Below are positions 53,245-64,000 of a stretch of 64,000 nucleotides of DNA, one piece after another. The notes beneath the pieces were generated by a model. It made no database searches, had not been told where the DNA came from, and worked only from the letters and a program-made list of their open reading frames with translations. The stretch comes from Tessaracoccus oleiagri. Its GTDB lineage: Bacteria; Actinomycetota; Actinomycetes; Propionibacteriales; Propionibacteriaceae. The position numbers were made by a program, and so were the translations under genes. The DNA is taken from the NCBI RefSeq assembly GCF_900103275.1, contig NZ_FNGP01000004.1:124001-188000 (forward strand), in the 5' to 3' direction. Position 1 is the first letter of the stretch. Each line of letters begins with the position of its first letter.

Positions 53245-53473
53245 CGCCTCGGCGTGATCTCGGAGTCGGGCTCTTTGGTGGCGGTCACTGCATCGGCGCT
53301 TTGTGGAGCCCTGCGGAGCAATGATGCGTCCTGGTGAGGCGTGCCACGGAGCTGCTGCGTTCGTCGTCGTATCGAATGGCCGAGCGCTCGGTCATGCCGA
53401 TGTGCGGGTGCTTGGGGATGCCCAGTACTGACCCCCGGAGACGGGGTTGGGGCCTGTGAGTTATGGTCGCAAG

Positions 53474-54154
53474 GTGAATAATGCAGCCGGGTCGACGACC
53501 AGTCGTGAGGAGGAGATTGCGTTCCGCATCCTGGAGCAGGTCCTTGGCGTCAGCATCTTCCTCGCCGACGCCGGAGCGGGCAACAACAAGCCTGACGGGG
53601 CGTGGACTTATCCTGGTGGAGAACGGCGCCGGGGCATTGTCGAAGTGACTTCACCACCGGACAAGAAGCTCATGAGTAGATGGGCTCAAGCCAAGAGGGA
53701 CGGCCTGTCGCAGTCAGAAAGTGGTTCGATCCCACCACGGATAGGCGAACTGCATCAGGTCTGCGCTGAACTACTCGCAGCCGCCTGGGCTTTGGACAAC
53801 ATCGCGAAGTTGCGAGCCGAGCCCGCGGACGAGAGGCACCTCTTCCTATTTGGCCGCAGCCATCGGGTTCAATCGTATTTCTGCCGACTCTCGGACACCT
53901 ATGAAGATGGGTCCTTCGAGTCTGTCCTAGACCTTGTTCTCCCCGACGGCATTACTGATCTCTGGTGCAGGGGCAGGGCGAGGCGCGAGGAACCCTGGGG
54001 CACAAGGGTTTGGGTAGCAAGGTTTCAGGCTGGCGTCGGCTGGAACCGATACGTCGCTGACATCGACGAACGGCACCTGCCTTCTCCCAATGCTTCCCTC
54101 GCCGACGACCGCCTCGACCCACAGCTCAGAGCGCCTAGGGACCGTTCGATCTGA
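53474..54154 (+). CDS. Uncharacterised accessory protein, possible PD-(D/E)xK-like fold
   Basis: The 226-residue product has no family I recognise. An N-terminal acidic helix (REEEIAFRILEQVLG) is followed by KPDGAW (Asp 41) and GIVEVTSPPDKK (Glu 57, with Thr 59 where a nuclease would have Lys), spacing that recalls PD-(D/E)xK nucleases but is not conclusive. The C-terminal half has WCRGRARREEPWGTRVWVARF and an acidic tail. GTG 53474 is chosen because TATGGT lies exactly six bases before it; TTG 53447 or GTG 53456 in frame are alternatives. It opens the accessory block after era. Confidence 0.6.
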   Translation: MNNAAGSTTSREEEIAFRILEQVLGVSIFLADAGAGNNKPDGAWTYPGGERRRGIVEVTSPPDKKLMSRWAQAKRDGLSQSESGSIPPRIGELHQVCAELLAAAWALDNIAKLRAEPADERHLFLFGRSHRVQSYFCRLSDTYEDGSFESVLDLVLPDGITDLWCRGRARREEPWGTRVWVARFQAGVGWNRYVADIDERHLPSPNASLADDRLDPQLRAPRDRSI

Positions 54155-54241
54155 TCGATCCTCGTGTGGCTGGTAGCGGAGATCGCGAGCGGGCCGCCGT
54201 GATGGGTGGGTCCCACCAGTCGCATGTACGACACTGGGGGA

Positions 54242-55048
54242 ATGATTGCGCTCTCTGACAGCGATCGCCGCGCGCTCGAACGGATGACGGCGACATTCTC
54301 AACCCTCGAAGCTTGGCGTGTGCGGTCACGATGCGTGGAGGAACCTGAGCGGGGAAGTGAAGCAGCTCTAGATGATGCCATCTGGCGATGGATGCCACCA
54401 TCCGAGATCGCCCGACAGTCGCTTGTCGCCGCTACCCAGCACCTGAACTTGGCGAGAACAGCGATCGAGGCGAAGGACATCTACCCGAGTTCTCACTTCA
54501 CCGTTCTCCGCGGCGGTCTGGTCGGCGCTAGCCAAGCGCTGTGGATCCTAGGGCCGGACGACCGCGCTGAGCGACAGCAACGTGCGCTGCGGGTGATCGA
54601 TGAGTGGTATCGCCGCGCGTTGCAGCATGCCGCCGAGTACATGCCGCTCATTAATGATGTAAGTGACCGGCAGCAGATGCAGCGGAGCATGGCCCACATG
54701 CAAAGACGTCGAGACGACGCACGCCAGCTCTGGCGGAAGACGTCAACTCTTACAGAGAGGCAGACCTTGGAGTTGACAGATGTCATCGCGTGGTCGGCAT
54801 CCGAGGTTCTGAATGACCCCGTACGTGCGGCTCTTGTGAGGCCGTTGTGGCAGCAGCTCAGCGGAGATGCGCACGCGTTGGGTTGGGCCGTCATGACCCG
54901 CAGCTCGCTGGTTGAGCGCCAAGCCGGAGGTATGGCGGTGTTCGCCGCGGGCGGTGACTTGCAGCGCGTTGGTCAGGCATTCACCTTAAGTTACAGAATC
55001 CTGAAGACCGGCTGGTCTTTGTTCGACCGCAGGTGTGAGGGGCTCTAG
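54242..55048 (+). CDS. Uncharacterised helical accessory protein
   Basis: The 268-residue product appears mostly alpha-helical, without signal peptide or clear membrane span. Conserved-looking blocks are YPSSHFTVLRGGLVGASQALWILGP-type sequence near residue 95, ERQQRALRVIDEWYRRALQHA, and LSGDAHALGWAVMTRSS. I recall similar unannotated actinobacterial proteins but no function. ATG 54242 lies six bases after GACACT; ATG 54206 and 54224 in frame would be alternatives. It sits 87 bases after the previous accessory gene on the same strand. Confidence 0.6.
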   Translation: MIALSDSDRRALERMTATFSTLEAWRVRSRCVEEPERGSEAALDDAIWRWMPPSEIARQSLVAATQHLNLARTAIEAKDIYPSSHFTVLRGGLVGASQALWILGPDDRAERQQRALRVIDEWYRRALQHAAEYMPLINDVSDRQQMQRSMAHMQRRRDDARQLWRKTSTLTERQTLELTDVIAWSASEVLNDPVRAALVRPLWQQLSGDAHALGWAVMTRSSLVERQAGGMAVFAAGGDLQRVGQAFTLSYRILKTGWSLFDRRCEGL

Positions 55049-55368
55049 CCGCTCAGGAAGAAGGAATAGCTCGCGGTCCGAGTTGGTCGGGGCGGAGGTT
55101 CTGGCTCACTGTCCAGCCGCGATGTGCGGGGGTTGGCCGTAGGGCTGCAGGTTCCCAACACGACCGCCCTCGATTGCCGTTCGTGGTGCACACGCTCGCG
55201 ATGCGAGCAATCCGTGCATGAAGGCCGAGTTGGTTGGTGTCGGCAGCAGTTGGCAGGTGCCGCCTGGTGGTTGGGACGCTCTAGCTGGCCTGTGCACTGA
55301 AGGCATGGCTCTGACGAAGCGGTTGGCCCGCCTCCATGTCTACTCTTCGAGCGCCGTCGACAGCCCGA
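55049..55368. other. Intergenic region without recognised gene
   Basis: About 320 bases between the helical accessory gene and the Shedu promoter. The frame of the Shedu gene stays open from ATG 55218, but this part has poor codon use and no homology and the promoter signal lies after it. I see no tRNA, terminator or repeat. Confidence 0.5.
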
Positions 55369-55374
55369 TAGGGT
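55369..55374 (+). promoter_or_regulatory. -10 box of the Shedu operon
   Basis: TAGGGT is six bases before ATG 55381, the same spacing as the other leaderless starts of this window. No good -35 box is seen 17 bases upstream. Confidence 0.45.
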
Positions 55375-55380
55375 GTGCGA

Positions 55381-55404
55381 ATGATGAACGAAGCGGTTCT
55401 ATGA
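55381..55404 (+). CDS. Seven-codon leaderless ORF overlapping the Shedu start
   Basis: ATGATG opens an ORF encoding MMNEAVL whose TGA stop overlaps the ATG of the Shedu gene (ATGA). The predicted message starts at this ATG. The Shedu ATG itself has no ribosome-binding site, so a ribosome ending this short ORF could re-initiate there. Coding status is inferred only from position. Confidence 0.4.
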   Translation: MMNEAVL

Positions 55405-56690
55405 CGACGGTACCCCGCTGGCAGTTGGTTGCTGACAGCCTCGAACGTCAAGCATCAGGGCCTTCGGCCCAACAGTTGAGCGCCGCGAAGAGCCTCGGAG
55501 TGGACCTCCCTGTCTCGCTGCCAGCCCCCGTGGCGGCAGTGGTGCTGCGCTACCGACTATGCACCGAGTTGAGACTCGCGTTTCGATCCGCTGACGGAAT
55601 CCCCGCGGTGCTCCGGGACATTGAGGACGAGCTGGGTGTTTCACGCACCGAATCACTTCTCACAGATACAAGTGAAGAGGTAAGCGCCTGGTTTGAGTCG
55701 AGGTACATCCTCAAGACAGTTCGCGGCCTGCGGAATCTGAAGCCCGAGGTCGGCGATGTTGTTTCTTGTGCCGGTTGGCGGGAGGGCGAACGGAGGGTCA
55801 TATCGACCATCCAGGACAGTGGCCGGATCTTTATGAAGCTGAAGCCAGTTCGGAGCGCATGGCCGAACCACCTCGAAATGGTGGCGCGCGTCGGGTCTCC
55901 CCAATATGAGGCGGCCGTCAAGAGCGCCGGTGATTCCGTACTCAACTCGACCGTGTCAACCTCAACGAACCTAGACAACTTCGGTCTCCTGTCGCAGTAC
56001 GAACTGAATAGCCACATACCGACGCCGGAGGCGATTCGCGCGCTCGAAGAGTTGCTCGAATCGGGGGAGCGGCGGGAGGAGCCGCTGCAAGTGGTGCTGA
56101 CCCAGTATCCCGAGTTGCTAGCTTCGACCGTTGTCGGAGGATGGAAGACTTTCGTCATTCCGAAGCCGCGCCTTGGTGCGGAGCATGTCCCCGACTTTCT
56201 CATCCTAGGTATCAACAGCGTTGGTCCTCAGTGGCTGACGGTTGAAATTGAGGGTGCGCGGCACCAAATTCTGACCAAGAAAGGCAAACTCGCACAACAG
56301 ACGCGACACGCGATAGAGCAGGTCGAGGACTGGCGGGAATGGCTCACCCGCAATGTGAGCTACACGCAGATTGAGAAGGGGTACCACGGCCTCACTACGC
56401 GCGCTCCAGGCCTGGTCATCATTGGCCGTGATGACCCCTCAGCCGAGCGACAGGCCTCGAGGGCGCGCACTGAGGAGCAGGCCAGAATTGCAGTGCACTC
56501 CTGGGATTGGCTACTCCGCGGGGCGCGGAACTTGAGTGACCACGCTCTGTACAAGACTAAGTTCGCCATTGACAACCTGAATGAGCAGGCTGGACAGCAG
56601 GTAGTTGCGCTCCCAGTGTCACGCGCCTCCACGTTCGATGAGCTGCTCGCTGGGGACGAGGACGCGGAGTACAACCGGTTTCCCTGGTGA
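55401..56690 (+). CDS. sduA: Shedu-type (DUF4263) nuclease, putative phage defence
   Basis: Shedu proteins are single-gene phage-defence nucleases. Here the DUF4263 domain lies at about residues 210-345 of 429: PEAIRALEELLES, LTQYPELLAST, the core TFVIPKPRLGAEHVPDFLIL with Asp 265, WLTVEIEGARHQILTKKGK with Glu 282 and Glu 284 and Lys 293-294, and the helix HAIEQVEDWREWL. These are the PD-(D/E)xK residues of the family (ExE rather than ExK). The N-terminal 200 residues are a separate, mostly helical then beta-rich region I cannot assign; it may sense the trigger. The start is supported by the ATGA overlap with the short leaderless ORF. Codon use is less GC-biased than in neighbouring core genes. 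Confidence 0.82.
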   Translation: MTTVPRWQLVADSLERQASGPSAQQLSAAKSLGVDLPVSLPAPVAAVVLRYRLCTELRLAFRSADGIPAVLRDIEDELGVSRTESLLTDTSEEVSAWFESRYILKTVRGLRNLKPEVGDVVSCAGWREGERRVISTIQDSGRIFMKLKPVRSAWPNHLEMVARVGSPQYEAAVKSAGDSVLNSTVSTSTNLDNFGLLSQYELNSHIPTPEAIRALEELLESGERREEPLQVVLTQYPELLASTVVGGWKTFVIPKPRLGAEHVPDFLILGINSVGPQWLTVEIEGARHQILTKKGKLAQQTRHAIEQVEDWREWLTRNVSYTQIEKGYHGLTTRAPGLVIIGRDDPSAERQASRARTEEQARIAVHSWDWLLRGARNLSDHALYKTKFAIDNLNEQAGQQVVALPVSRASTFDELLAGDEDAEYNRFPW

Positions 56691-56978
56691 GCTGAGAGTG
56701 ACGGAGACGTGTCTGCCGACTGGCATGTCCTAAATCACTGGGCGATGTTCGCCCTGTGAGGCTGAGGGGGAGTCCAACATCCGCGGAGAATTCTGGGTCG
56801 CGGGTGGGTTTCCTTCGGAACTGGAGTGTCCGTCGCGCCAGGCGGGTGGGCGTACGTGCAGGAAGCCGGCCTGGGGCCAGGTCTGGAAGGGTGGGAGGGA
56901 TCGCGGGGTCCTGACTGGGTCGCTCATCCACGTGACCGAGACCGCCACACGGATGCACGCTCATGCCGCTGTGGTGCG

Positions 56979-57239
56979 TCAGCGGTAGACGTCCGCACGG
57001 TGCTCGATCGCGACGATCGTGACCCGATGATCGATCCGGTAAATGACCCGATAATCTCCTCGGCGTGCGCTGTGGAGGCCTTCAAGTTCGAAACGCAGTG
57101 GCTTGCCGACGGGTTGGGGATCATCCGCCACCGGCCCATAAATGAATTCGATGGCTGCGGTGGCCGCCTTCTCCGGTAGCCGCTGCAGCGCCCGCTTGGC
57201 CGTGGGCGTCCAAGCGATCTCGTACTGCTTGGCCATCAT
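56979..57239 (-). CDS. RelE/ParE-type toxin
   Basis: The 86-residue protein has the RelE fold pattern: YEIAWTPTAKRALQRLPEKAA, PVGKPLRFELEGLHSARRGDYRVIYRI and VTIVAIEHRADVYR at the end, with the Arg residues used by ribosome-dependent mRNA interferases. The ATG overlaps the antitoxin stop by ATGA, so toxin is made only after antitoxin. About 290 bases without a gene separate it from the Shedu gene, which points the other way. Confidence 0.9.
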   Translation of the reverse strand: MMAKQYEIAWTPTAKRALQRLPEKAATAAIEFIYGPVADDPQPVGKPLRFELEGLHSARRGDYRVIYRIDHRVTIVAIEHRADVYR

Positions 57240-57517
57240 GCGCGCAGGGATCCGAGGATGTCTTCTTTGCTGAGGACTTCGGCCTCACCGCTGACGAGTT
57301 CGGCCAGACTGTCGCGGACCTGGCCGATGAGCTTTGGCCGGCTCACAACTTCGAGAGTCTCTTCCAGCGAAGCCAGGTCCTCCGTGCTCATGACTACCGC
57401 CGCAGGCTTGCCGTGGCGAGTGATGACGATCCGGTTGTGCTGCCGCTCAACTTGATCGACCACCTCGGAGAGGTGGTTCTTCACATCCCGTAGGGCCATG
57501 GAGTCATCGATGTTCAT
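57236..57517 (-). CDS. Phd/YefM-type antitoxin
   Basis: The 93-residue protein has the Phd/YefM DNA-binding start (MALRDVKNHLSEVVDQVERQ, HNRIVITRHGKPAAVVMSTED) and a C-terminal arm that should wrap the toxin. It represses its own promoter in known systems. The ATG at 57517 lies seven bases after a TACACT box and has no ribosome-binding site; the longer frame to 57649 is not supported. Confidence 0.9.
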   Translation of the reverse strand: MNIDDSMALRDVKNHLSEVVDQVERQHNRIVITRHGKPAAVVMSTEDLASLEETLEVVSRPKLIGQVRDSLAELVSGEAEVLSKEDILGSLRA

Positions 57518-57524
57518 GACTACA

Positions 57525-57552
57525 AGTGTAGCTACATCGGGGCGTGGCTCAA
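57525..57552 (-). promoter_or_regulatory. Antitoxin promoter with palindrome
   Basis: On the minus strand TTGAGC (57552-57547), a 16-base spacer and TACACT (57530-57525) precede the antitoxin ATG by seven bases. CTACACTTGTAG, a palindrome with a two-base centre, covers the -10 box and is a likely antitoxin operator. Confidence 0.6.
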
Positions 57553-57602
57553 CATTCGCATGCTGGCTGCGGGACCATGGCGGTTGGCCATATGGTCGGC
57601 GC

Positions 57603-58025
57603 ATGAGACTCCCAGACGGCCCGGACCTCGGCCTGCTGCTGATCCGCACCGACTATTCCAGCCAGGATGCTTGGCACCGCGCCCTGGACGCAGCAACCGC
57701 GATCTACCCCGGGGACGATTGGCGCAATGGTGCCCTGCTGACGCCCGTGGAGGCACCCGAACTCAGCGCTCTCACGCCCAACGAAATTGTCCGCCTCGCG
57801 CGCGAGGGTTACTTGAGCGCCGTCGCAGTGGCCGATGAGCAGTCCATGAGAGATGGCACTATCCTGTTTTTGGACCTGAACGAGTTCGGCGGGGAAGTCG
57901 GGCGCACCTTCCGCGCCATCCCGCGAGAGATCGAGCCGATCACTGCGAACCTATCCCTGGCGAATATGGACTTCAGCGACTTCGCCGACAACGCGGACGC
58001 TGACGGCATCTTCCGTGGCTTTTAG
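57603..58025 (+). CDS. DUF6924 domain protein
   Basis: The 140-residue protein matches DUF6924: PDLGLLLIRTDYSSQDAWHRAL at the N-terminus, LTPNEIVRLAREG in the middle, and GRTFRAIPREIEPITANLSLA followed by NMDFSDFAD. It is cytosolic and acidic. The family is uncharacterised; members often sit beside toxin-immunity and other accessory genes. TATGGT lies six bases before the ATG, so the transcript is probably leaderless. It is divergent from the antitoxin gene. Confidence 0.78.
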   Translation: MRLPDGPDLGLLLIRTDYSSQDAWHRALDAATAIYPGDDWRNGALLTPVEAPELSALTPNEIVRLAREGYLSAVAVADEQSMRDGTILFLDLNEFGGEVGRTFRAIPREIEPITANLSLANMDFSDFADNADADGIFRGF

Positions 58026-58140
58026 CGCACCCTGCGACATCCGGTTCTACGCTGATCGAGGTTCCTTCCCCCCGGCGGGGGTCGGGCAGGAAGGGGCTAG
58101 GCATCGCACGACATCGGCGAAAGCCGGGCAGACTGAGGGC

Positions 58141-58704
58141 ATGGCTGATCACCGCTCGGCGGTACCGCTGGATAACCCTCGTTGGGCGACGCTCGGGACT
58201 CGTAATGGCCCCGGGGCCCAGCGGGTCCGCGACGCACTCCTAACCTTGCTCGATGCGCCGTCCGAGATGGCAGTGTTCAACGAGATGTGGCCCGAGATCT
58301 GTTCAGACGACACGACATTTGACGCCGCGTACGCAGCGGCTCCCTACTTGGTCTCTATGGCCGAGCTGGCGCCGATGCAGAATGCAGTGGAGTACCTGAT
58401 CGTGCTCGGCCTCATCGAGACTTACGCACAGGTCGTACCTGAGGACCTTGAATCCGCCTACCGTGACGCTCTTCGGGACGCTACGGAGCTTGCCCTTCGA
58501 CGACTCGACGAGTGCTCCATCGACCACACGCTTCGCTATCTATTGGGGGCAGTCGCGGCCTTCCGCGGGCGCCGAGACCTCGCAGGAGCGCTTGTGGACA
58601 TCGATCTCGTTCAGGAGACATGTCCCTCGTGCGGAACTCTCATTTTCCCGAGCGAACTCCAACAGATCACCCACCGCGACAGCCGAGAGGTGAGGGATCA
58701 GTGA
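58141..58704 (+). CDS. Uncharacterised immunity-like protein
   Basis: The 187-residue protein begins VPLDNPRWATLGTRNGPG and contains FNEMWPEICSDDTTFDAAYAAAPYLVSMAEL, a pattern seen in immunity-like proteins of actinobacteria that start with a short P-L-D-x-P-x-W motif. It ends with a CPSCG knuckle. CAGACT lies six bases before the ATG; an upstream in-frame extension has no such support. Function is not known; no matching toxin is visible next to it. Confidence 0.55.
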   Translation: MADHRSAVPLDNPRWATLGTRNGPGAQRVRDALLTLLDAPSEMAVFNEMWPEICSDDTTFDAAYAAAPYLVSMAELAPMQNAVEYLIVLGLIETYAQVVPEDLESAYRDALRDATELALRRLDECSIDHTLRYLLGAVAAFRGRRDLAGALVDIDLVQETCPSCGTLIFPSELQQITHRDSREVRDQ

Positions 58705-58784
58705 TGGGGAGCGCAGAATGCACGGACAGGCCGCCAGTACTTGGTGAAGGGCCAGAGTCGGCAAACGCAGGAGAACGAAGGACG

Positions 58785-59348
58785 ATGCGGTCGGGATTCA
58801 TCGCTGTGTTGGCGACCGCGCTCTTCACACTGTCAGGATGCGCGACGCCCGCTGCCGAAGTCTTCTACAACGCTTCCTACCCCGCGTTCGAGTCGGTCTC
58901 GGAACTGAAGGAGGCGGCTGACCTGGTCATCGAAGGCGAAATCATTTCCTCGGCCGTCAGGGAACTGGACATCGCGAGCGAACCGACCGGCGCGGCCGCT
59001 GACGACCCCGAGTTGAGCCCCAACGGCTCCGAGCGGGACACGCGCTCTGTGATGGTGTTCACCGTTCATGAGGTGCAGGTTCAGCGAGTGCTCAAGGGGT
59101 CCAGCATTGAAAGTGAGAGAGTCCAGGTTAAGGAACTCGGTGGGACGCTCGGGAAGACGGCGTACCTCACTGAAGGGGGCGTTCTCCTACGCGAGGGAGA
59201 GTCGTACGTCATGTTCCTGGAGACCTACGAGTCGACGCCTGCGAGCCTCTTGAATCCCGTCCAGGCCGCGTACCAGAACGTCCACGGCAAATGGACGTCC
59301 ATGGCCGGGAACTCGCTCGCGGTCGAAGACGTCGCCGAACTCTCTTGA
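58785..59348 (+). CDS. Uncharacterised lipoprotein
   Basis: The 187-residue product has a lipoprotein signal (MRSGFIAVLATALFTLSGCA, lipid Cys at the LSGC box) and a domain with ADLVIEGEIISSAVRELDIA and VMVFTVHEVQVQRVLKGSS, VLLREGESYVMFLETYE, which resembles secreted beta-barrel proteins of the kind that carry a VLKG turn. The ATG follows ACGAAGGACG with AAGGA. ATG 58704 in frame would put 27 polar residues before the signal and is rejected. Role unknown. Confidence 0.75.
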   Translation: MRSGFIAVLATALFTLSGCATPAAEVFYNASYPAFESVSELKEAADLVIEGEIISSAVRELDIASEPTGAAADDPELSPNGSERDTRSVMVFTVHEVQVQRVLKGSSIESERVQVKELGGTLGKTAYLTEGGVLLREGESYVMFLETYESTPASLLNPVQAAYQNVHGKWTSMAGNSLAVEDVAELS

Positions 59349-59496
59349 CCGTCTGGGGAGATCGTGAGCCGACTAGGAATCAGAGCGATCATGTTCGGCT
59401 CCGTAGCGGGAGCGGAGACGTTGCTCTCGGAGATTTTTCAGGGAGGGGCGCTCTCCGGCGAGAAGATTGTCAGAGGCGCCTGATCTAATAGTTCAC

Positions 59497-60921
59497 ATGA
59501 GCGAAACGCTGCGGAATCTGAGAGGCGCGATTGATGCCGCGCTGCTGGATCTGCGCGCGCTCAGAATCACCACCGACGAGGACGCCGCCGAAGTGAAGGG
59601 GGTGTTGGCGGAACTGGAGGTCGAGGAGGCGCGGCTCGCGGGCCTGCGGCTGGCGTTGGTGGGGGAGGCACAGCTGGCCGGGGCTGCGGCGGCGGTGGAC
59701 CAGGTGCGGAACTCGCCGCGCAGCACGAGCAGTCAGGCCGCTGGGGTGTTGAAGCTGGGCGCAGATTTGGCGGACCGGTTCTGGATCCTAGCCGAGGCGC
59801 TGGCCGAGGGTTCGATCTCGGTGGCGCAGGCCGAGGCGATCGTCACTGGATTGAAGCGGCTGCCCGTCGCGTTGGGGCGTACCCAGTTGGAGGGGTGTCA
59901 GCGGCAGTTGCTCGGCTACTGCGACGAGCTTGGCCCGGCCGAGCTGCGCCTCGCGGCGCTGCGGATGTGGGAACTCTACGACCCCGACGGCGCGGAAGAC
60001 GTGGAAGCGCAACGGCTCGCCCGTGAGGAGCGGCTCGCAAAAGCCGGCCGCGGGTTGCGGATGACCCCGGACCACCACGGCTCCATGCGGCTCACCGGCC
60101 AACTCCCGACGGCCGACGCCGCGCTCCTGCAGGCGCAGCTCGATGCCCTCATGCCGCCCGCCTCGTCGTACATGGACGAGAGGGAGGTGCCCAGCCCGGA
60201 GGCCAGGCGCGCGGACGCGCTGCTGCGCCTGGCGGCGATCGCCGCCGCCTCGGGCGACGTCCCGGCCCAGGGCGGGGACCGCCCGCATGTGCAGATCACC
60301 ATGCCGCTGTCCATGCTCACCGACGGGCTCGGCGCCGCGGGGGTGTTCGGGTTCGGCGGTGAGACGGTCTCGGCGGGGGAGGCTCGTCGGATGGCTTGCG
60401 ATGCGGGCCTGATCCCGCTTGTCCTGGGCTCGGCGTCGCAGCCGCTGGACGTGGGCCGGGAGTACCGGCTCGTCCCCAAAGCGCTGCGCACCGCGTTGAC
60501 CCACCGTGATCAGGGGTGCGTGTTCCCGCACTGCACCGCCCGGCCCGCCGCGTGCGAGGCGCACCACATCCAGCCGTGGTGGGCGGGCGGCGACACGTCG
60601 CTGCAAAACTTGGTCTTGTTGTGCGCGCACCATCACCGACTCGTGGAGCCGGACCCCGAGCGAGCGCCGGAGTGGCAGTGGCAGATCACGATCGACGAGG
60701 CCACCGGCAGACCGATCTTCGTCCTGCCCAAGCACGTCGACCCGGCCCGGCGGCCACGACAACACCGCCGATTCACGCTCCAAGAGATGACGCCACCACC
60801 ACCGGCGGAGGGACGAGTCTGCCCAGAACCAGAGCCGGACCCGTGGCACCCGTGCGACGACGACCCATGGCACCCCGAACCTGCGGAGCCCGCGACCTCG
60901 GCGGCACCGGCGCTCCGGTGA
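59497..60921 (+). CDS. DUF222 / HNH endonuclease family protein
   Basis: The 474-residue protein belongs to the DUF222-HNH (13E12-like) family that is repeated in many actinobacterial genomes. The N-terminal helical DUF222 region has LAEALAEGSISVAQAEAIV and MRLTGQLPTADAALLQAQLDAL; the C-terminal HNH nuclease has RDQGCVFPHCTARPAACEAHHIQPW and NLVLLCAHHHRLVEP with the metal and catalytic His residues. Relatives move with mobile elements, but their role is unclear. The ATG lies five bases after TAATAG and lacks a ribosome-binding site. Confidence 0.9.
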   Translation: MSETLRNLRGAIDAALLDLRALRITTDEDAAEVKGVLAELEVEEARLAGLRLALVGEAQLAGAAAAVDQVRNSPRSTSSQAAGVLKLGADLADRFWILAEALAEGSISVAQAEAIVTGLKRLPVALGRTQLEGCQRQLLGYCDELGPAELRLAALRMWELYDPDGAEDVEAQRLAREERLAKAGRGLRMTPDHHGSMRLTGQLPTADAALLQAQLDALMPPASSYMDEREVPSPEARRADALLRLAAIAAASGDVPAQGGDRPHVQITMPLSMLTDGLGAAGVFGFGGETVSAGEARRMACDAGLIPLVLGSASQPLDVGREYRLVPKALRTALTHRDQGCVFPHCTARPAACEAHHIQPWWAGGDTSLQNLVLLCAHHHRLVEPDPERAPEWQWQITIDEATGRPIFVLPKHVDPARRPRQHRRFTLQEMTPPPPAEGRVCPEPEPDPWHPCDDDPWHPEPAEPATSAAPALR

Positions 60922-60931
60922 GCCCGATGCA

Positions 60932-62791
60932 TTACTCGCGGAACTGCGTCTCGTAGAGCGAGCGGTAGAGCCCGCCGGCCGCCAGCAGTTCCTCATGCGT
61001 GCCGTGGTGAACCACGCGACCGCGGTCCAGCACGACGATCTGGTCCGCGCCCCGAACGGTGGAGAGTCGGTGCGCGATGACCAACGAGGTGCGGCCGGTG
61101 AGCGCCTCGTCGAGGGCCCGCTGGACCGCCACCTCGGACTCACTGTCCAGGTGCGCAGTGGCCTCGTCGAGCACAACGACCGCAGGAGACTTCAGGAGCA
61201 GCCGGGCCAGTGCCAGCCGTTGCTTCTCGCCGCCCGAGAGCCGGTGACCGCGGTCGCCGACGACGGTGTCCAGGCCGTCGGGCAACGACTCCACCAGCGA
61301 GGCGATCTGGGCGTCCCGCAGCGCGGCCCAGAGCTGCTCGTCGGTGGCTCCCGGGAGGGCGTAGCGCAGGTTGGCGCGGATGGTGTCGTTGAACATGTGC
61401 GCCTCCTGCGTCACCACGCCCACCGCCGCACGGAGCGACTCCGAGGAAGCCTCCCGCAGATCGACCCCGCCGATCCTCACCGTGCCGCTCGTCGGATCGT
61501 GCAACCGGGCCACCAGGGACGTCAGAGTCGTCTTGCCCGCGCCGGAGGGACCGACCAGCGCCGTCACGGAGCCCACGGGGATCTCGAAGCTCACGCCCGA
61601 CAGGACCGTCTGCCCCTCGGGGACCGTGGTTTCGGGACGCGTCTCCAGCGAGGCCAGCGAGACCTGGTCGGCGGCGGGGTAGCTGAACGTCACGTCCTCG
61701 ACGCGCACCCCCACCGGACCGCGCGGGATGTCCGTCGGCCGTTCGGCCTCGGCGACCAACGGCTCCAGGTCCAGCACCTCGAAGATCCGCTCGAACGACA
61801 CGAGCGCGGTCATGATGTCGACGCGCACGTTCGACAACGCGGTGAGCGGAGCGTAGAGCCGGCCCAGCAGCGCGGCCATCGCCACGAGCGTGCCCACCGA
61901 CAGCTGCCCGGCCACCGCCATGAGCCCGCCCAAACCGTAGACGAGCGCCGTCGCGAGGGAGGCGACGAGCCCGAGCCCGGCCATGAAGATCACGCGGTTG
62001 ACCGCGATTGCGACCCCCGCGTCGCGCACTCCTCGAGCGCTGGCGACGTACTCCGCGTTCTCCACCGCCGGTCGGCCGAACAGCCGGACGAGCAGCGCGC
62101 CGCCGACGTTGAAGCGCTCGGTCGTGCGGGTCTGCATGCTGGCGTTGAGGTTCATCTGGCGACGCGTGAGCGCGGACAACCTCGGCCCCATCAGCCGCGC
62201 GGGGACCAGGAACAGCGGGACGAGCAGCAGCGCCAGGATGGTGATCTGCCAACTCATCGAGAGCAGCGCCGCCAGGACCAGCACCAGCAGCACCAGGTTG
62301 CCGACGAACCCGGACAGCACCGAGGTGAAGGCCGCCTGCGCCCCGATCACGTCGTTGTTGAGCCGGCTGACGAGGGCGCCGGTCTGCGACCGAGTGAAGA
62401 AGGCGATCGGCTGGCGCAGCACGTGCGCGAAGACCTCCGACCGCAGGTTGAGGATGAGCCCTTCGCCGATCCGTGCGCTGACCCACCGGGTGACGATCGT
62501 CAGTGCCGAGTCGGCGATTGCCAGGGCGGCCACCACCAGTCCGAGCGTCACGACGACGTCGCGTCGGCCGGGGGTCACGCCGTCGTCGATGATCCGCTGC
62601 AACAGCACCGGCACCGCCACGACGACGACGCTCCCCAGGACGGCGAGCACCAGGTAGGCGATGATGTCCCGCACGAAGGGGGCCCCGTAGGAGGCGACGC
62701 GCCGGGCCGTGCCGCGGGCCACCTTGTGCGAACGGACGGACGCGTCCTTGGCGAAGCTGCTGACGCTCGCGCGCCCACCCTGGCCGTACAT
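60932..62791 (-). CDS. ABC exporter, fused permease and ATPase
   Basis: The 619-residue protein is a half-transporter that works as a dimer. Six helices lie in residues 35-330; the ATPase has Walker A VGPSGAGKTTLTSLV, the Q-loop VTQEAHMFNDTI, signature LSGGEKQRLALARLLL, Walker B VVVLDEATAHLD and switch His in IAHRLSTVRGAD. It resembles MsbA/multidrug-type exporters; no substrate is indicated. ATG 62791 is preferred; TTG 62797 lies two codons upstream. It follows leuA on the same strand, 25 bases away, and may share its transcript. Confidence 0.9.
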   Translation of the reverse strand: MYGQGGRASVSSFAKDASVRSHKVARGTARRVASYGAPFVRDIIAYLVLAVLGSVVVVAVPVLLQRIIDDGVTPGRRDVVVTLGLVVAALAIADSALTIVTRWVSARIGEGLILNLRSEVFAHVLRQPIAFFTRSQTGALVSRLNNDVIGAQAAFTSVLSGFVGNLVLLVLVLAALLSMSWQITILALLLVPLFLVPARLMGPRLSALTRRQMNLNASMQTRTTERFNVGGALLVRLFGRPAVENAEYVASARGVRDAGVAIAVNRVIFMAGLGLVASLATALVYGLGGLMAVAGQLSVGTLVAMAALLGRLYAPLTALSNVRVDIMTALVSFERIFEVLDLEPLVAEAERPTDIPRGPVGVRVEDVTFSYPAADQVSLASLETRPETTVPEGQTVLSGVSFEIPVGSVTALVGPSGAGKTTLTSLVARLHDPTSGTVRIGGVDLREASSESLRAAVGVVTQEAHMFNDTIRANLRYALPGATDEQLWAALRDAQIASLVESLPDGLDTVVGDRGHRLSGGEKQRLALARLLLKSPAVVVLDEATAHLDSESEVAVQRALDEALTGRTSLVIAHRLSTVRGADQIVVLDRGRVVHHGTHEELLAAGGLYRSLYETQFRE

Positions 62792-62816
62792 CGTCAAGCC
62801 CGGCGGCCGGGGCCGC

Positions 62817-64000
<1,184 letters not shown>

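Follow-up and report, generated by a model that had tools for sequence, protein, structure and literature searches.

Shedu systems consist of a single protein in which a DUF4263 nuclease is placed under one of a diverse range of N-terminal regulators, some of which sense DNA ends (PMC12137116, PMC12409362, PMC12904381). These papers describe the N-terminal regulatory domains as diverse, with reference to Gu et al. 2025 and to Loeff et al. 2025. In VcSduA, the type I-D protein of V. cholerae, the N-terminal domain is a GHKL ATPase with a regulatory role (PMC12137116), and replacement of the nuclease motif lysine by alanine (K557A) abolished defence (PMC12137116, PMC12409362, PMC12904381).

Here we describe a protein of this known Shedu kind from Tessaracoccus oleiagri, encoded in a 64,000-nucleotide stretch of contig NZ_FNGP01000004.1 (the window) and set apart by a change in its catalytic motif and by a sensor-like front half of an undescribed type. 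Like type I Shedu proteins (SduA; DUF4263, PF14082) it has a C-terminal SduA_C domain with an additional N-terminal domain, forms a single-protein unit, retains a conserved Glu/Asp/Glu/Gln core and belongs to a group found in defence-island company. It differs from them in having ExE rather than ExK, tryptophan rather than tyrosine at position 311, and an N-terminal domain that is absent from Pfam, PADLOC, NCBIfam and PHROGs. The arrangement of a DUF4263 nuclease under an N-terminal domain is shared with VcSduA, whereas the GHKL ATPase and the essential motif lysine of that protein are both missing.

The sduA-like gene and its family

The sduA-like gene is an intact open reading frame of 429 codons on the forward strand (55401-56690). 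In a Pfam search SduA_C (PF14082) was matched at residues 226-372 (56076-56516, forward strand) with a score of 34.9 bits, above the curated cut-off of 27 bits, and an E-value of 2.1e-8. Ten SduA models from PADLOC also matched the protein, the best of them with an E-value of 5e-19. The original prediction, which had placed a DUF4263 domain in the C-terminal half and assigned the protein to the Shedu family, is borne out by both searches and we regard the assignment as near certain. No second DUF4263 gene was found in the host genome, and a sequence search of solved structures with the protein matched nothing.

A longer product starting at an in-frame ATG at 55218 is not favoured. A 1-bp indel in a 97%-identical copy of the gene disrupts the frame ahead of 55401, which makes 55401 the better start. 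A phage origin was also rejected, with 0 matches in 50,697 phage records and none among viral contigs, part of this viral search having used relatives of the protein as queries.

Active site of the nuclease

An alignment was made of the nuclease portions of 15 DUF4263 proteins, namely the window protein, five sharing its N- and C-terminal layout, four from its nuclease subgroup in which no N-terminal domain of the window type was detected, and five canonical proteins including one of the GHKL type. The acidic residues of the PD-(D/E)xK motif, Asp265 (56193-56195) and Glu282, align with all 14 other proteins, as does Glu226 (56076-56078), which lies in the first helix and is predicted to belong to the catalytic site. 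The lysine of the canonical (D/E)xK motif is absent from the window protein, which reads Glu282-Ile-Glu284 (56244-56252). Position 284 is lysine in all five canonical proteins and glutamate in the window protein and nine relatives, so that ten of the 15 proteins sampled are ExE; the motif lysine is a hallmark of the canonical active site and not a trait by which the profile delimits the DUF4263 family. Further along, Gln307 (14 of 15) and Trp311 belong to a Q-x3-W helix (56319-56333, like the preceding features on the forward strand), with tryptophan in all ten ExE members and tyrosine (Q-x3-Y) in four of the five ExK members.

Asp265, Glu282, Glu284 and the QVEDW helix (307-311) do lie at the positions originally assigned to them, and the ExE and QVEDW motifs are genuine and conserved. 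They had been taken as the pattern that defines Shedu, and this part of the claim did not stand, canonical members being ExK. Since positions 284 and 311 divide the aligned set, ExE and Q-x3-W, on this sequence comparison, mark a variant subgroup. The ExE pattern recurs in further motif lines, those of L033, L038 and L040, and two of the ten ExE proteins, both plasmid-borne, are annotated in RefSeq as SduA-domain proteins. The same ExE, Q-x3-W nuclease subgroup includes a Rhodococcus plasmid protein (WP_051649728.1, L032), an SduA-domain protein of 251 aa in which a profile of the window-type N-terminal domain gave no match.

Lys293 had been proposed to complete a catalytic site with Asp265 and Glu282. 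The residue is variable in the 15-protein alignment, being lysine in about half of the ExE subgroup and glutamine, asparagine or glutamate in the others (glutamine in two relatives about 52% identical overall to the window protein, asparagine in another), and this lack of conservation rules it out as a strict catalytic residue. In the full-length AlphaFold model the pLDDT of the C-terminal domain is mostly below 50, too low for the active site to be judged in three dimensions.

N-terminal domain and genomic company of the relatives

That the first 200 or so residues match no known domain was confirmed, residues 1-204 giving no Pfam match even at an E-value of 10 and residues 1-205 lying outside every PADLOC, NCBIfam and PHROGs match. 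The observation that this half is unmatched, and could carry a different trigger, is therefore upheld. An unmatched N-terminus is usual for Shedu, a family known for the diversity of its N-terminal regulatory domains. Gu et al. 2025 reportedly list dozens of Shedu N-terminal types, and the domain described here may already be among them.

An AlphaFold2 model built on five sequences predicts that residues 1-162 (55401-55886, forward strand) form a domain of helices (6-19, 23-32, 42-58, 69-78 and 91-113) followed by five strands (120-162), with a pLDDT of about 79-94 across most of the core and below 50 at residues 59-84. For the strand region Foldseek gave numerous barrels of SH3/Tudor type, all of them weak matches with E-values above 0.01, and the predicted SH3-like small barrel is accordingly a lead rather than proof. 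Among the papers searched, none joined Shedu with SH3.

A profile of the N-terminal domain matched five other full-length proteins and three stand-alone proteins of 170-178 aa that have no nuclease half (L015, L016 and L022). The latter match the window domain over its full length with HMM E-values of 1e-57 or better, having themselves been members of the profile. The existence of these proteins is the strongest sign that the N-terminal domain forms a module of its own. A domain predicted to fold and occurring separately precedes the nuclease, where it may take the place of the Shedu type I regulator. One stand-alone protein is encoded near an OLD/GajA-like gene (L015/L017), one near a PD-Lambda-1 gene (L016/L018) and one near a PLD-like gene with no strong defence match in that neighbourhood (L022/L077). 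None was found on plasmids.

Besides the near-identical copy there are five full-length relatives, from Nocardioides (L009), Leifsonia aquatica (L010), PROP1 (L011), G207 (L014) and G589 (L020), and an apparently broken copy of the gene is present on a Streptomyces plasmid. By raw count, four of the five independent relatives with the same layout lie in defence neighbourhoods. The neighbours are type I restriction-modification (R-M) genes with GajA, GajB and RmrA in Nocardioides; type I R-M genes hsdMSR in PROP1, where hsdR ends 2 bp before the sduA-like gene; a CBASS cyclase, HORMA, TRIP13 and TIR-SAVED in L. aquatica; and a GmrSD_N/NsnA protein, an N6/N4 methylase and an AAA ATPase in G207 (L014/L019). 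No recognised defence gene was found near the relative in G589 (L020/L076). These neighbourhoods argue for the defence role that had been inferred from context. The neighbours differ in every independent locus, and no obligate partner conserved with the gene, whether a toxin-antitoxin or an R-M component, was found.

Two of these loci are arranged in ways worth recording. In Nocardioides (L009:6148-9266) the sduA-like gene follows gajB by about 65-100 bp on the same strand, which may represent a Gabija and Shedu operon. In PROP1 (L011:7240-8730), downstream of hsdMSR, a gene for an unmatched 496-aa protein starts 3 bp past the sduA-like stop codon.

Transfer, the era-leuA junction and a possible mechanism

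The gene lies downstream of era within an accessory block, as originally predicted. The block extends from era to the next conserved gene, which is leuA-like (53245-62852), and is missing from G030, a close relative and the one whose Era is most similar, where the era-side and leuA-side alignments are 56 bp apart compared with 9.6 kb in the window. This junction is variable in the genus, holding pyrG in G028, PKD-like proteins in G046 and a sugar ABC transporter in G014 (gene names read from the ORFs). No tRNA that would indicate tRNA-linked integration was found at the locus, nor any convincing terminal repeats of the block or of the cassette within it.

This cassette, 1.85 kb on the forward strand (55116-56969), shows 96.3% nucleotide identity with a contig of Propionibacteriaceae UBA6238, a member of the same family but of another genus, and the two copies have unrelated flanks. 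The shared unit contains the sduA-like gene alone, so that by sequence comparison the mobile unit is a single gene, and a recently transferred one. The GC content is 60%, compared with 70% in the window, and GC3 is 0.70 compared with about 0.95 in host genes. Between the window gene and the 97%-identical copy there are 14 synonymous and 13 non-synonymous changes, a dN/dS of 0.30 that fits mild purifying selection.

The toxin-antitoxin pair noted in the original prediction is present beside the gene but is not part of the mobile unit. It comprises a ParE-type toxin (56979-57239; PF05016, E 1.8e-11) and a Phd/YefM antitoxin (57236-57649; PF02604, E 6.3e-18), both on the reverse strand, begins 10 bp past the end of the cassette and is missing from the L006/L008 copy. 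As it lies beyond the cassette shared with UBA6238, it was ruled out as part of the system.

Other genes of the block, all on the forward strand, include two orphans upstream. The first (53447-54154, 235 aa) has no family match and no plasmid match, although by eye its DGAW...GIVEV resembles a PD-(D/E)xK nuclease; the second (54206-55048, 280 aa) has distant relatives on actinobacterial plasmids and its best match in Cutibacterium modestum (47% over 61%). Downstream is a DUF6924 gene (57498-58025, E 1.3e-34). At its 5' end it runs into the antitoxin ORF of the opposite strand, so that its true start is probably further in. A DUF222-HNH gene (59467-60921) is followed by an ABC exporter gene; as the former has a host-like GC content of 71%, the foreign low-GC part of the block stops near 59348.

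Taken with the published work on Shedu, these features make it quite probable that the gene encodes a self-contained anti-phage nuclease of type I layout that arrived as a 1.85-kb cassette. The likeliest reading is a Shedu nuclease resembling type I, in which cleavage of phage DNA would be gated by the N-terminal domain. The C-terminal domain, of PD-(D/E)xK fold, would cut DNA at a variant centre of Glu226, Asp265, Glu282, Glu284 and Gln307, while the helical and SH3-like N-terminal domain would act as the sensor and hold the nuclease inactive until a signal linked to phage frees it. This signal would most likely be a feature of nucleic acid, for example a DNA end or a replication intermediate. 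The gene would have entered the variable era-leuA spot as a single-gene cassette.

A different role, which we consider unlikely although it is compatible with gated defence and both may hold, is that of an R-M helper that degrades or blocks DNA ends left by type I R-M or similar cutting rather than sensing phage itself. The close coupling to hsdR in PROP1, where the gene comes next after a 2-bp gap, allows for such action on restriction-made ends; type I R-M and Gabija genes surround the Nocardioides gene, an HsdR is encoded elsewhere in the genome of the window, and for EcSduA both binding and cleavage occur close to DNA ends (PMC12904381). No R-M gene, however, adjoins the gene in the window, in L008 or in L010 (where it lies beside CBASS), and the transferred unit contains sduA alone. 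It is more improbable still that the subgroup has lost DNA cleavage and works instead through binding to DNA or to a phage protein. All ten of its members have glutamate at position 284 where the equivalent lysine is required in V. cholerae SduA (PMC12137116), and the effect of K557A makes this change a real question for activity. Against a loss of cutting, Glu226, Asp265, Glu282 and Gln307 are invariant within the subgroup across several N-terminal architectures, which suggests selection for a metal site. Active restriction enzymes with an ExE centre exist, BamHI being one.

There is very little likelihood that the protein is an accessory nuclease without a part in defence, serving for instance the housekeeping of its carrier element. 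On the contig of the L006/L008 copy the ORFs do include what read as a MobF-type relaxase and a tyrosine recombinase, but the window gene sits outside any recognisable element core and the defence neighbourhoods of four of the five independent same-layout relatives are of differing kinds. Beyond the reading of a gated anti-phage nuclease, we put forward more tentatively that the N-terminal domain is a sensor module new to Shedu, either fused to an ExE nuclease or free near other defence genes, and that the ExE subgroup cuts by means of a BamHI-like rather than an ExK centre. As both fused and free forms circulate, the module might read a signal common to several defence systems.

The ExE/Q-x3-W subgroup corrects the assumption that every DUF4263 nuclease uses ExK, which bears on the design of mutants and on annotation. 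Shedu appears as one nuclease core under many sensors, and a sensor that also exists alone would offer a tractable route to its ligand.
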